Assembly: GCA_947504725.1 (NCBI GenBank)
Contig: CANNHN010000003.1
Location: 276,945-340,944 of the forward strand
DNA from: Bacteroidota bacterium
GTDB lineage: Bacteria > Bacteroidota > Bacteroidia > 2-12-FULL-35-15
Reading direction: 5' to 3'
Length of the DNA stretch: 64,000 bases
Shown: positions 47,187-54,046 of the stretch, in pieces
How positions within the stretch are numbered: position 1 is the stretch's first letter
Layout of the letters: every line of letters starts with the position of its first letter
The notes under the pieces: model-generated
Database searches by the model: none
What the model was told of the DNA's origin: nothing
What the model saw: the letters and a program-made list of their open reading frames with translations, nothing else
Made by a program: the position numbers and the translations under genes

Positions 47187-49730
47187 ATGGATAAAATCAA
47201 CAATTATTTTCCTTTAATTTCCTTTAATTCAGAAAGCCAATTAGCGATTTTTTCACCTAAAAGACTCCGCTCATTTTTTCTTTCCTTGTTTCAATTTGTT
47301 TTAGTTCTTTTTATAGTAACGAAATATAATTTTGAAAAATCATCTGGAATTATTGATTATGCTCCGTATGTTATTCTTGTTTTTGTCGTTTATAGTTTTA
47401 TTCCTATTCGATTTCGTCCTGCATTTTTGTTTTTGAGTTGCGTTAGTCTCATTTATATTGCTTTTGGAATTCTTGCAGGAAGTTTCTTTATAGTTATTGG
47501 ATTGAGTTTGATTTTTATTTCTCATTTACCAATTAAATTTAAATATCGTGTTTTTATTGTTTTACTGCTTGCGTTAATACTTGCATTATTTAGGACGGAA
47601 TTTATTTATTTACCCTGGATGACAATGACAGCTATGTATATGGTTCCATTGTTTATGTTTCGTTTAATTATTTATTTATATGAAATTAAAAATGGTCTAA
47701 TTCCATTGAATAAATGGCAAAGTGTTAGTTATTTTTTTATGTTTCCCAATGTGTTTTTTCTTTTCTTTCCTATTATAGATTATAAAACATATATCAAAAC
47801 CTTTTTGGATTCCCCAGAAATTGAAATTTGGCAAAAGGGGATTAGGTGGATGGTTCGAGGCTTGATTCACATCATGTGCTATCGTCTTATCTGTTTGAAT
47901 TTTTTAATCGGTCCTGCCGAAGTTATTGATCTACCTTCATTATTGCAGTACATGGTAGTTAATTATTCTTTAATTGTTAGGCTCTCAGGTGTTTTTCATT
48001 TTATGGTTGGTTTGGTTTGTATGTTTGGCTTCAATTTGCCACAGATATTTGATAACTACTTTACAGCAACCAGTTTTGTCGATTTGTGGAGAAGAATAAA
48101 TATTTATTGGCGAAATTTTGTGTTGAAAATTTTCTTTTATCCTATAATGTTTCGCTATAAAAAAATTGTCAAAAAAAATTTGTTAGCTTTTACAATGATG
48201 ACAGTTTTTTTCATTACATGGATTATGCATAGTTATCAGTTGTTCTGGATTACTGGAGTTGTTTCAGTGCGACCTATTGATGTTATCTTTTGGATGGTGA
48301 TTGGGACTTGCATTACTGCAAATTCAGTTATTATTGAAAGAAGAACACTTTCTGAAAATAGAGAAATTAAAGAATTGTCAAATTTGTATAAGTACTTTAA
48401 AAAAATCATTCGAATAGTAGGGATGTTTTTTTTTATGTCAATCATGTGGTCGCTTTGGAACACGCCAACACTCGCTGATTGGATTTTTATAGTTTCTAAA
48501 GGAAAACAGTTTGATTCAATGCAACTCATTTTGATTGTGTGTATATTAATTGCTATTATATTCTTAGGCGTATTTGTTCAAATACTAATAAAAAATCATA
48601 ATATTAAAAAATTATTGATTGCTAAACCGCATGATACATTGCTTCTTACTTTTTCTACTCTTCTGATTTTAACTTCCTTTTCCTTTATAGAAATTCGCTC
48701 TAAATTACCAGCTAGCATTCAAAAACTTTATAGTAATTTATCCGATGGTTCTCCAAATAAACTTGAAAAAACAGCAGCAGAAGCTGGCTATTACGACAAA
48801 TTAATTGAAGGAGACGAGGGTAATACAATTGGAATTGGAGGTAAGTCCGTAAAAAAAATGGTTAAAAAAAACCCTTATGTCAATGCCTATTTTTATCAAA
48901 ACAATATTGTCAACAGGCGGATGAAACCCAATTTAAATATAATAGGTCTTGATCATAATTTTCAAAGCAATAGTTTCGGAATAAGAGACAAAGAATATCT
49001 CTATAAAAAGCCGCAAGGCACAAAACGATTAGCGCTATTAGGTAGTTCTTATCAAATGGGTTCTGGAGTTGATAATGATGAAGTTTTTGAAGCTATAGCT
49101 GAAGAAAAAATGAATAGAGAATTAACGGACTCAATCAATAAAAAATTTGAGATATTCAATTTTGCTGCTGGAGGTTATTATTTGTTGCAACATATTGAAT
49201 TGATTAACACAACGGTTTTTCAATACGATATGGATGCAGTGGCATATTTTGCTCATACGGATGAAAGAGGTAAAGTCATAAAAGATTTCGCTTTAATTAT
49301 TAAGAAGGAATTGCCCTTAAAGTATCCATTTCTTGAGAATATTGTGAAGGAAAGTGGAGTGAAGCCATATATGAGTATGTTACAAATAAAAGAAATGTTA
49401 ACTCCTTATTCCGACACAATTATGAAATGGGGATATATAGAAATTGCAAAACAATGTAAAAAAAATAATGCTATTCCTGTTTGGGTTTTTATGGAAACAA
49501 CTACTGAATTTGTAGATTTGAAAGAATTTAATGAATTAAAAGAATATGCAGAATCATTAGGGTTTGTTACAATTGATTTACGTGATACATATGGTAAACT
49601 TGATAGAAATGAAATTAGAATTTCAGAATTGAATACGCATCCAAATGTGCTTGGTCACCGATTGATTGCAGAAAAATTTTATAAAGAATTGAAAATTAAA
49701 AAAAGTCTAATTTTCAGAGTAGAGGAATAG
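47187..49730 (+). CDS. MBOAT family O-acyltransferase fused to C-terminal SGNH-hydrolase-like domain
   Basis: Polytopic; FVDLWRRINIYWRNFVLKIFFYPIMF and ITWIMHSYQLFW (MBOAT-like); C-term RLALLGSSYQMGSGVDNDEVF ... ELNTHPNVLGHRLIAEKF (SGNH-like). Confidence 0.78.
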   Translation: MDKINNYFPLISFNSESQLAIFSPKRLRSFFLSLFQFVLVLFIVTKYNFEKSSGIIDYAPYVILVFVVYSFIPIRFRPAFLFLSCVSLIYIAFGILAGSFFIVIGLSLIFISHLPIKFKYRVFIVLLLALILALFRTEFIYLPWMTMTAMYMVPLFMFRLIIYLYEIKNGLIPLNKWQSVSYFFMFPNVFFLFFPIIDYKTYIKTFLDSPEIEIWQKGIRWMVRGLIHIMCYRLICLNFLIGPAEVIDLPSLLQYMVVNYSLIVRLSGVFHFMVGLVCMFGFNLPQIFDNYFTATSFVDLWRRINIYWRNFVLKIFFYPIMFRYKKIVKKNLLAFTMMTVFFITWIMHSYQLFWITGVVSVRPIDVIFWMVIGTCITANSVIIERRTLSENREIKELSNLYKYFKKIIRIVGMFFFMSIMWSLWNTPTLADWIFIVSKGKQFDSMQLILIVCILIAIIFLGVFVQILIKNHNIKKLLIAKPHDTLLLTFSTLLILTSFSFIEIRSKLPASIQKLYSNLSDGSPNKLEKTAAEAGYYDKLIEGDEGNTIGIGGKSVKKMVKKNPYVNAYFYQNNIVNRRMKPNLNIIGLDHNFQSNSFGIRDKEYLYKKPQGTKRLALLGSSYQMGSGVDNDEVFEAIAEEKMNRELTDSINKKFEIFNFAAGGYYLLQHIELINTTVFQYDMDAVAYFAHTDERGKVIKDFALIIKKELPLKYPFLENIVKESGVKPYMSMLQIKEMLTPYSDTIMKWGYIEIAKQCKKNNAIPVWVFMETTTEFVDLKEFNELKEYAESLGFVTIDLRDTYGKLDRNEIRISELNTHPNVLGHRLIAEKFYKELKIKKSLIFRVEE

Positions 49731-49761
49731 TAAAAAGGTATTAATTATAAATTGAAAGAGG

Positions 49762-50025
49762 ATGAGCTCAAATGTAAATGAAATAAAAGAAACCGTTAGA
49801 GAATTTGTTAAAAACAGGTTTCTGAAAAATTCGGACGGACTTGAATTAACTTATTCAACTCCACTTATTAGTGGTGGAATAATTGATTCAATTCTCACTA
49901 TGCAATTGGTTGTGTTTTTGGAACAAACCTATTCATTCGAATTTCAAGCGCATGAAGTGGATAAAGACAATTTGGATACTATCGAAATTATAGCAGCTTT
50001 TGTAGTTAAAAAGCAGAATGGATAA
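49762..50025 (+). CDS. Acyl/peptidyl carrier protein
   Basis: TPLISGGIIDSILTMQLVVFLEQTYSFEF with GxxDS phosphopantetheine Ser. Confidence 0.88.
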   Translation: MSSNVNEIKETVREFVKNRFLKNSDGLELTYSTPLISGGIIDSILTMQLVVFLEQTYSFEFQAHEVDKDNLDTIEIIAAFVVKKQNG

Positions 50026-52620: not shown

Positions 52621-52654
52621 GATTTAAAATTCTTAAACAACTTAAAATATAAAA

Positions 52655-54046
52655 ATGAAGTTGTATGATGTGATTATTATTGGGGGCGGGCCTTCAGGTT
52701 CAACCTCCGCAACTCTTTTGGCTCAAAAAGGCCTTACTGTTTTGCTTTTAGAAAAAGAATTATTTCCAAGAGAACATGTTGGTGAATCATTGATTCCACT
52801 TTCTTATGAACTTTTAGAAAAGCAAGGTTTAATTGAGGAAATGAAAAAAATTTCCACTCGTAAACCTGGTGTAAGTTTCGAAGATAAAGAAGGGGTGAAT
52901 CGTTCGTTGTGGTGTTTTAAAAGCGTCATTAAGGATGATTCTTATTTATCATTTCATATGATTCGTTCTGCGTTTGATAAGTTATTGTTGGATAATAGCA
53001 AAAAGAAAGGTGCAGAAGTTCGTGAAGAGTATATGGTTAAAAATGTAGTATTAGACCGTTCGGATAAAATTGTTGAAGTGTTTGCTACCAACAAAAATGG
53101 AGTTGAAGAAAAATTTGAATCAAAATTTATTATTGATGCGAGTGGGCAAAGTACTTTCTTAGGTAGAAAATTGGGTGTTAAAAAAGCATATTCTGATTTA
53201 GATAGAGTAGCAACTTGGTCGCATTGGACAAATAATGATTTTGATACTACTTTAAAAGAAGGCGTAATTAAGATTATTTATTTAGGTGGAGATAAAAAAG
53301 GCTGGATGTGGGTGATTCCAATAAGTAAAGACCATTTAAGTATCGGAGTCGTTGTAAACAACGATCACGTTAAAGAAAAGAAAAAAGTATTTCAAAATTC
53401 TGCAGATTGGAAAAAAGAGTTTTATCTGTCTGAACTGAATGAATCTTACTTGTTTAGCTCAATATTGAAGAATTCCAAAATGGAACATAAAGTTGCTATG
53501 GCTGGCGACTATTCATACTATTGCGAAAAGAAATACGGTGATAATTTTGCTTTAGTAGGTGATGCTGGAGCGTTTTTGGATCCAATATTTTCTAGTGGAA
53601 TTTATGTAGGGATGCACAGTGCAGAATTAGTTGCAGATGCAATTTATGATAAGTTGAATGGGAAGAATGAAAATTTAGAATTAGTAAAAGCGTATACTAA
53701 AATTGAAGGAGCTGTAAAGTTGCTTGAGAAGTTTATTCGTTTGTTTTATACGCCAGAAGCACTCAATTTTTCTACAATAGGTTCGCCAGAAGGCTTGTTG
53801 AAGTTTAAAAAATTTGAAGGAGCGTACGCTATATTTCATTATTTATTAGCAGGTGATTTTTTTAATAATTATGAAAAATATAGTGAGTTTATTGATGTAA
53901 TTGCTGACAAAAGGGCTTTGTCGAAATTCGAAAACTTAATAAACCATGCTCAAGGAGATATGCCCAAGCAGTGTGGTGAGGAGTTTGAAAAAATGTATGG
54001 AGAAATGATTCACAAAATAGAATTTGATCACAAAGCATTTGAGTAA
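52655..54046 (+). CDS. FAD-dependent oxidoreductase, flavin-dependent halogenase-like
   Basis: IIGGGPSGSTSA, HVGESLIP, GWMWVIPIS (WxWxIP), FLDPIFSSGI (FxxPxxSxG), LVGDAGAF. Confidence 0.78.
   Translation: MKLYDVIIIGGGPSGSTSATLLAQKGLTVLLLEKELFPREHVGESLIPLSYELLEKQGLIEEMKKISTRKPGVSFEDKEGVNRSLWCFKSVIKDDSYLSFHMIRSAFDKLLLDNSKKKGAEVREEYMVKNVVLDRSDKIVEVFATNKNGVEEKFESKFIIDASGQSTFLGRKLGVKKAYSDLDRVATWSHWTNNDFDTTLKEGVIKIIYLGGDKKGWMWVIPISKDHLSIGVVVNNDHVKEKKKVFQNSADWKKEFYLSELNESYLFSSILKNSKMEHKVAMAGDYSYYCEKKYGDNFALVGDAGAFLDPIFSSGIYVGMHSAELVADAIYDKLNGKNENLELVKAYTKIEGAVKLLEKFIRLFYTPEALNFSTIGSPEGLLKFKKFEGAYAIFHYLLAGDFFNNYEKYSEFIDVIADKRALSKFENLINHAQGDMPKQCGEEFEKMYGEMIHKIEFDHKAFE

Follow-up and report, generated by a model that had tools for sequence, protein, structure and literature searches.

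Pyrrole-forming gene modules are known from antibiotics and pigments, and Dlt-type machines are known as cell-wall modifiers. Parts of both kinds stand side by side in a five-gene cassette in a 64,000-nucleotide stretch of DNA (the window) from a Bacteroidota bacterium (assembly GCA_947504725.1, contig CANNHN010000003.1). Judged from its sequence and from structural models, the cassette probably encodes a Dlt-like system for envelope acylation, fed by a carrier, which would transfer a pyrrole-2-carboxyl group, here probably halogenated, a reading to which a probability of roughly 0.7 is given.

The pyrrole modules combine a proline ligase, a carrier and a dehydrogenase, to which a flavin halogenase can be added (PltF/PltL/PltE, RedM/O/W, Bmp1/3/4 and CloN3/4/5; halogenases PltA, Bmp2 and Mpy16). 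The cassette shares this gene set with them, as well as the pocket code of the ligase and the catalytic glutamate of the dehydrogenase. The difference lies in the partner, which is a membrane MBOAT-SGNH transferase here and a nonribosomal peptide synthetase, polyketide synthase or thioesterase in the known modules. The esterification of a deoxysugar hydroxyl with pyrrole-2-carboxylate is known from clorobiocin and coumermycin (CloN1/N2/N7), whose acyltransferases are soluble and cytoplasmic, act on an antibiotic and involve no membrane transferase. A Dlt-like set of adenylation enzyme, carrier and membrane transferase is also known from a Gram-negative, in the AlmEFG system that glycylates lipid A in Vibrio. 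AlmEFG differs from the cassette by the use of glycine, by the absence of ring oxidation and by AlmG, which is not an MBOAT-SGNH fusion.

In the Dlt system, by which Gram-positive bacteria attach D-alanine to the teichoic acids of their cell walls, the carrier gives D-alanine to DltB, from which it passes to a tyrosine of DltX (motif FxYxxF) and then to a serine of DltD (PMC12148441, PMC9338922). The cassette resembles Dlt in that an adenylation enzyme would load a dedicated carrier, a DltB-fold MBOAT would take the acyl group and an SGNH domain would complete the transfer. It departs from Dlt by a proline code in place of one for D-alanine, by a dehydrogenase and an optional halogenase, and by an MBOAT and SGNH domain in one chain, whereas Dlt has the separate SGNH protein DltD. 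PatA/PatB and the alginate and cellulose O-acetyltransferases share the MBOAT histidine, the SGNH serine and histidine and a tyrosine shuttle to extracytoplasmic polymers, and such separate MBOATs bear FxYxxF at their own C terminus (PMC12148441). These systems consist of separate proteins, use acetyl-CoA and are carrier-free. OatA-type proteins likewise join a membrane acyltransferase and an SGNH domain in one chain, with the difference being that the membrane half is AT3 instead of an MBOAT of DltB fold. The excerpt of PMC12148441 gives two architectures, in which SGNH is either fused to an AT3 or a protein of its own beside an MBOAT, with Dlt as the sole carrier-fed system; a carrier together with a fused MBOAT-SGNH protein does not figure there.

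The cassette consists of the following genes:

47181..49730, plus strand: MBOAT-SGNH fusion of 849 amino acids (aa), TTG start with an in-frame ATG at 47187
49762..50025, plus strand: carrier protein, 87 aa, phosphopantetheine site Ser43
50018..51472, plus strand: stand-alone adenylation enzyme, 484 aa, predicted L-proline ligase, pocket code DLFYLALVCK
51472..52620, plus strand: prolyl-carrier dehydrogenase of acyl-CoA dehydrogenase (ACAD) fold, 382 aa, catalytic-type Glu245
52655..54046, plus strand: flavin-dependent halogenase of CmlS/PltA type by PDB matches and motifs, accessory gene, 463 aa

A first-pass annotation of this DNA had described five closely packed genes on one strand, and all five open reading frames (ORFs) were found on the plus strand at 47181-54046. 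The gaps are 31 bp between fusion and carrier and 34 bp between dehydrogenase and halogenase, while the carrier and adenylation ORFs overlap by 8 bp and the adenylation and dehydrogenase ORFs by 1 bp. The start at 47187 given earlier does coincide with an in-frame ATG; the ORF is called from the TTG at 47181 instead. Pfam matched AMP-binding (E 1e-67), ACAD (E 1e-40) and Trp_halogenase (E 2e-27), and PP-binding weakly (E 0.008); the MBOAT and SGNH labels of that annotation were left without a match in the 849-aa protein.

The linkage of these genes recurs widely. In a comparison of 37 genomes of the genus, with the dehydrogenase counted at an identity of at least 62%, fusion and dehydrogenase occur together in six genomes and are both absent from 30; in the remaining one (G016) the contig ends within the fusion. 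Carrier, adenylation enzyme and halogenase are also present in the five relatives that have fusion and dehydrogenase, although in G033 some 14 kb separate the fusion from the rest of the set and in G007 the set is split over contigs. A scan of 85,488 GTDB species genomes for the fusion yielded 259 relatives, the best 80 of which (79 loci) were kept and examined by six-frame profile searches; 52 loci lie on contigs long enough to be assessed. Carrier, adenylation enzyme and dehydrogenase adjoin the fusion in 34 of these 52, spread over eight phyla (Pseudomonadota, Bacteroidota, Hydrogenedentota, Myxococcota, Gemmatimonadota, Rhodothermota, Acidobacteriota and Verrucomicrobiota). The order is fusion-carrier-adenylation enzyme-ACAD in 20 loci, and six more have the halogenase added. 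All hosts belong to Gram-negative phyla, which is a further difference from Dlt. A plasmid of Microvirga sp. VF16 bears the gene set too.

The reverse search, started from the dehydrogenase, found the fusion on 32 of 39 informative metagenome contigs; seven long contigs lack it and 41 others were too short. One of the seven (L151) is the locus of G003, the closest relative, in which two proteins with type IX secretion system (T9SS) tails (Por_Secre_tail) stand between the fusion and carrier genes (L018:3415-9017) and so displace the fusion. On the fusion tree, the full-cassette label is clustered, although it requires at least 9 changes, against a mean of 14.8 after shuffling and none of 500 shuffles as low. 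Chance adjacency is ruled out by the recurrence in eight phyla together with the reciprocal search. Because the linkage recurs from both search directions, the unrelated MBOAT neighbors that the first-pass annotation had named as evidence against its proposal are not what is seen; the MBOAT protein is co-conserved with the carrier, adenylation enzyme and ACAD by both counts and by the matching distribution in the genus. A carrier-fed MBOAT of DltB fold, as in Dlt, is suggested by the fold match of the predicted structure and by the carrier gene that adjoins the fusion at most of the assessable loci.

Profile comparison and predicted structure identify the 849-aa protein as a fusion of a DltB-like MBOAT with an SGNH domain. 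It has no meaningful match in Pfam or NCBIfam, and a PF03062 search of the window's genome matched five other MBOATs and not the fusion, whose MBOAT half is too divergent for this model. Profile-profile alignment (hhalign) of 62 fusion relatives with six canonical MBOATs gave a probability of 98.6% and aligned His350 with the histidine of the canonical WHG and LWRRIN with FWRRWH. The AlphaFold2 model (pLDDT 88, pTM 0.82) retrieved with Foldseek first DltB (6bug, E 6.8e-7, and 8jem), then HHAT and then SGNH esterases (E about 1e-4), and the best fold match in the PDB is DltB with a TM-score of 0.62 by target length. The MBOAT and SGNH labels of the first-pass annotation, missed by the family models, are recovered by these two approaches. 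The residues proposed to act in the fusion are encoded as follows:

48228..48230, plus strand: codon of His350, MBOAT catalytic-type histidine, His in 101 of 101 aligned relatives
48789..48794, plus strand: Tyr537-Tyr538 codons of the GYY that lies in the linker of the two halves, one or both tyrosines proposed as acyl shuttle by conservation and analogy
49047..49049, plus strand: codon of Ser623, SGNH nucleophile-type serine (GxSxxxGxGV), conserved in 99 of 99 aligned relatives
49632..49640, plus strand: codons of Asn818-Thr819-His820, SGNH [DN]xHPN block, His820 in 98 of 98

The GYY of the linker is kept in all 62 fusions and in 100-101 of the 101 sequences of a second set. FxYxxF, present in five of the six canonical MBOATs examined, is absent from all 62 fusions, both in the interdomain stretch and at the end. 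The invariant GYY without the motif of the DltX microprotein separates the fusions from Dlt (no search was made for a DltX-like microprotein encoded separately), and by analogy Tyr537 or Tyr538 may be the acyl shuttle.

The carrier has the DS motif with the phosphopantetheine Ser43, which is found in all 57 aligned carriers. Its top NCBIfam model is ACP_for_OlsHI (NF052616), with 85 bits against a cut-off of 130, and it stays far below the cut-off for DltC (28 of 68 bits), again unlike a Dlt system. The adenylation enzyme matches TIGR01733 at E 1e-94 and falls below the cut-offs of the DltA models (293 of 476 and 286 of 560 bits). Over the pocket, the closest solved chain is that of the L-proline ligase PltF (6o6e). 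The ten-residue code, with positions assigned by reading alignments with solved enzymes, is DLFYLALVCK in the window, against DLLYLALVC for the aligned region of PltF and DLMTLCTVA for DltA (3dhv). The window's pocket equals that of PltF over this region save for a Leu to Phe change at pocket position 3, and cassettes of other phyla have DLLYLALVCK or a near variant. Proline, named as the activated amino acid by the first-pass annotation, is therefore the predicted substrate, and a plain D-alanine Dlt system is rejected because the pocket code differs from that of DltA.

The dehydrogenase has prolyl-carrier dehydrogenases as its nearest solved relatives, and the WER and YSGT motifs are conserved among aligned sequences. 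Of 53 aligned ACADs, 49 have Glu245 of the WER motif, and every cassette member is among these; a serine occupies the alternative ACAD base position. This glutamate aligns with the catalytic glutamate of AnaB, which is essential in AnaB and in Bmp3 (PMC10849742).

The fifth protein is predicted to be a flavin halogenase of the carrier-dependent type. Its PDB matches are 8zop, 3e1t, PltA (5dbj) and CmlS (3i3l), and the GxGxxG, WxWxxP, Lys and FxxPxxSxG features of carrier-dependent flavin halogenases are all present. Since only seven of the 34 full cassettes hold a halogenase, one of them as a weak, opposite-strand match (Methylomonas), it is rejected as a core gene; the five-gene combination proposed earlier is confirmed for carrier, adenylation enzyme, ACAD and fusion, with the halogenase as an accessory. 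Five metagenomic cassettes (L181, L187, L190, L196 and L202) have a remoter halogenase-like flavoprotein (140-193 bits) directly upstream of the dehydrogenase; this flavoprotein follows the adenylation gene wherever the latter is visible.

In the proposed mechanism, the adenylation enzyme would activate L-proline and load it onto the 87-aa carrier. The dehydrogenase would then oxidize prolyl-S-carrier to pyrrole-2-carboxyl-S-carrier, and in this lineage the flavin halogenase would halogenate the carrier-bound ring. Subsequently, the loaded carrier would dock at the DltB-like MBOAT half, where His350 would carry the acyl group through the membrane to Tyr537 or Tyr538 in the GYY linker. From this tyrosine, the group would reach Ser623 in the SGNH half, which would finally esterify a hydroxyl of an extracytoplasmic acceptor. 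Every reaction, as well as the shuttle tyrosine, the topology, the halogenation and the acceptor, is inferred from sequence and models. Gene set, proline code, folds and two-way linkage argue for such a Dlt-like pyrrolyl transfer, as the first-pass annotation had suggested.

Several observations weigh against this reading. At SGNH position 818, Asp is found in 92 of 98 relatives, whereas six, among them the window in its own clade, have Asn. The dehydrogenase stays under the cut-offs of the NCBIfam models PigA (420 of 500 bits) and RedW (372 of 650), and its top-scoring PDB match is the prolyl-ACP dehydrogenase 4irn (323 bits, followed by 5zw0 with 298 and 6cxt with 293); 4irn is AnaB, which makes a pyrroline and is not known to make a pyrrole. 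The distance matrices of fusion and ACAD are weakly correlated (r about 0.2), so parts may have been exchanged; mirror-tree values for the fusion against ACAD, adenylation enzyme and carrier (0.15-0.33) come partly from trimmed fragments (adenylation matrix) and were not used as support. Of the 52 assessable fusion loci, 11 have no carrier, adenylation, ACAD or halogenase gene nearby, and the fusion family is therefore broader than pyrrole. In most other phyla, no recurrent or acceptor-informative neighbor family was found around the cassette.

In the genus, the cassette is embedded in a larger locus with the following genes:

44973..46046, plus strand: sulfotransferase (PF13469, E 3e-31), syntenic in relatives
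46070..47080, minus strand: second sulfotransferase (PF13469, E 4e-28), syntenic in relatives
54053..54769, minus strand: LpxO/OlsC-type Asp/Asn beta-hydroxylase-fold protein (PF05118, E 1e-42; OlsC 100 bits, below cut-off)
54766..55509, minus strand: second LpxO/OlsC-type hydroxylase-fold protein (PF05118, E 3e-38)
55553..56239, plus strand: third LpxO/OlsC-type hydroxylase-fold protein (PF05118, E 3e-43; OlsC 123 and LpxO 96 bits, below cut-offs)
56229..56846, minus strand: GNAT acyltransferase, PseH-like (TIGR03585, E 3e-14, below cut-off), also in cassette-free genomes
56875..57792, minus strand: GT2 glycosyltransferase of undecaprenyl-phosphate sugar type, ArnC-like (PF00535; PRK10714 123 bits, below cut-off)
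57794-58540, minus strand: short-chain dehydrogenase/reductase (SDR), locus kept with and without cassette
58521-59579, minus strand: beta-ketoacyl-ACP synthase III (KASIII), locus kept with and without cassette
59580-59816, minus strand: small acyl carrier protein (ACP), 78 aa, labeled by position and eye, no family match
59878-60888, minus strand: second KASIII, locus kept with and without cassette
60958..62994, plus strand: TMTC-like membrane protein with tetratricopeptide (TPR) repeats, candidate protein O-glycosyltransferase (PF08409 below threshold)

The TMTC-like protein reaches 19.4 bits with PF08409 against a cut-off of 27, and its relatives carry PF08409 and are named protein O-mannosyl-transferase. 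A fold search matched its TPR part only and left the GT-C half, swamped by TPR matches, unconfirmed. Downstream of both this gene and one for 189 aa, a T9SS type B surface protein of 2734 aa begins at 63604 of the window (L036:2549-10753); it contains P-domain, Ig_7 and PKD domains. The locus of giant and small proteins, TMTC-like protein, KASIII-ACP-KASIII-SDR set, GT2, GNAT, LpxO/OlsC-type hydroxylase and sulfotransferases is present, with most of these parts, in the cassette-free genomes G009, G010, G015 and G018 as well. G015 has two AT3 acyltransferases where the cassette could sit. Because the locus exists without it, the cassette appears to be an optional addition to a locus of surface-glycan or glycoprotein type, and the acceptor in the genus is probably a sulfated, acylated sugar or O-glycoprotein of this locus. 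As side observations, the conserved part at 56229-62994 (also L144-L149), beside giant proteins, looks like an undescribed surface glycosylation system, and 40100-41212 of the window encodes a secreted depolymerase- or esterase-like protein of 370 aa that ends in a sorting-type tail, as judged by eye only.

A different acceptor for the same machinery, namely a membrane lipid or lipid A-like glycolipid instead of a glycan or glycoprotein, is unlikely and is the alternative that survives best. The three Asp_Arg_Hydrox genes that stand in a row between halogenase and GNAT (54053-56239; two on the minus and one on the plus strand) are of LpxO/OlsC type, the top model of the carrier is the OlsHI-associated ACP, and the occurrence of the cassette alone in many phyla would suit a ubiquitous lipid. 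Against these points, the Mesorhizobium cassette sits in an exopolysaccharide locus, among genes for Wzx, GT1 and a PF02397 priming transferase, and the SGNH domain with its DltD/PatB precedent favors polymers (PMC12148441).

It is improbable that the FAD protein acts as a flavin monooxygenase and hydroxylates either the ring or some other, unrelated compound. Such a function would fit its 190 bits with the top NCBIfam halogenase model, far below the cut-off of 900, and the shared fold of GG-reductase/LodB-type relatives. On the other side stand the conservation of Lys70 (17 of 17 aligned relatives) and of WxWxxP and FxxPxxSxG (16-18 of 18) and the nearest solved relatives, which are halogenases and include PltA.

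The lead of 4irn among the PDB matches of the dehydrogenase would agree with an enzyme that halts after two electrons, so that a dehydroprolyl (pyrroline) ester is transferred. This is also improbable, as PigA and RedW rank highest among the NCBIfam models and a pyrrole-type halogenase follows in this lineage; functionalization after pyrrole formation is the usual order (PMC10849742).

The two KASIII genes, ACP and SDR 4-7 kb from the cassette raise the question of whether the pyrrolyl-carrier is a starter unit from which a halopyrrole-headed small molecule or lipid is built, to be capped or exported by the MBOAT-SGNH protein. Pyoluteorin and prodigiosin pathways indeed extend pyrrolyl-carriers by malonyl units. 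This reading is improbable and is weakened because the KASIII locus, with ACP, SDR, GT2 and GNAT, exists in the four cassette-free genomes named above, and because no recurrent neighbor family accompanies the four-gene cassette in other phyla. Finally, it is very improbable that the fusion uses ordinary acyl-CoA next to pyrrole genes of separate purpose, as the 11 loci without loading genes might suggest, in view of the two-way linkage in eight phyla with mostly one gene order and of other adenylation and carrier genes that can replace the absent pyrrole genes (L054 and L095).

These replacements lead from the preferred Dlt-like pyrrolyl transfer to the wider fusion family. An adenylation-peptidyl carrier protein pair of fatty acyl-AMP ligase (FAAL) type lies beside the fusion gene in L054 (12459-14501), another adenylation enzyme with a carrier in L095 (12793-14502) and a Rieske oxygenase alpha subunit in L114 (12868-14091). 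In Methylomonas, a Rieske alpha subunit stands between carrier and adenylation enzyme, and the neighbor set that holds it also matched ring-hydroxylating beta subunits. The fusions of L054, L095 and L114 probably serve other acyl groups, and the varied loading genes fit a constant transferase with exchangeable acyl groups. Six further loci (L084, L049, L061, L101, L103 and L116) contain two to four tandem MBOAT-SGNH paralogs, several without loading genes nearby.

A broader proposal, on which the evidence is evenly poised, is that of a third envelope-acylation architecture next to separate MBOAT and SGNH proteins and AT3-SGNH fusions, in which carrier-fed MBOAT-GYY-SGNH chains with exchangeable loading modules decorate surface polymers with natural-product-type acyl groups. 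These would be pyrrolyl in eight phyla and halopyrrolyl, Rieske-oxidized or FAAL-loaded in some. The open-access papers searched gave no description of the pocket code, of pyrrolyl with MBOAT or of a system with MBOAT, pyrrole and carrier, and a broader search of them returned just Dlt, PatAB, natural-product pyrrole or unrelated work, which is weak evidence of novelty.

The ACAD branch of the cassette is most often found with an MBOAT-SGNH partner, unlike thiotemplated pyrrole modules. If the proposed function is true, many environmental bacteria would display an aromatic substituent, in some cases halogenated, at the cell surface. A large branch of prolyl-carrier dehydrogenases, which would be labeled by genome mining as orphan natural products, would also be explained, and a second carrier-fed MBOAT-SGNH system would join Dlt, the one known. 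The main claim is directly testable because isolate genomes are among the hosts (Mesorhizobium, Pseudothauera and Methylomonas; the isolates Mesorhizobium temperatum and Pseudothauera rhizosphaerae carry the cassette), and the fusion offers a single-polypeptide test of the acyl-tyrosine shuttle model.

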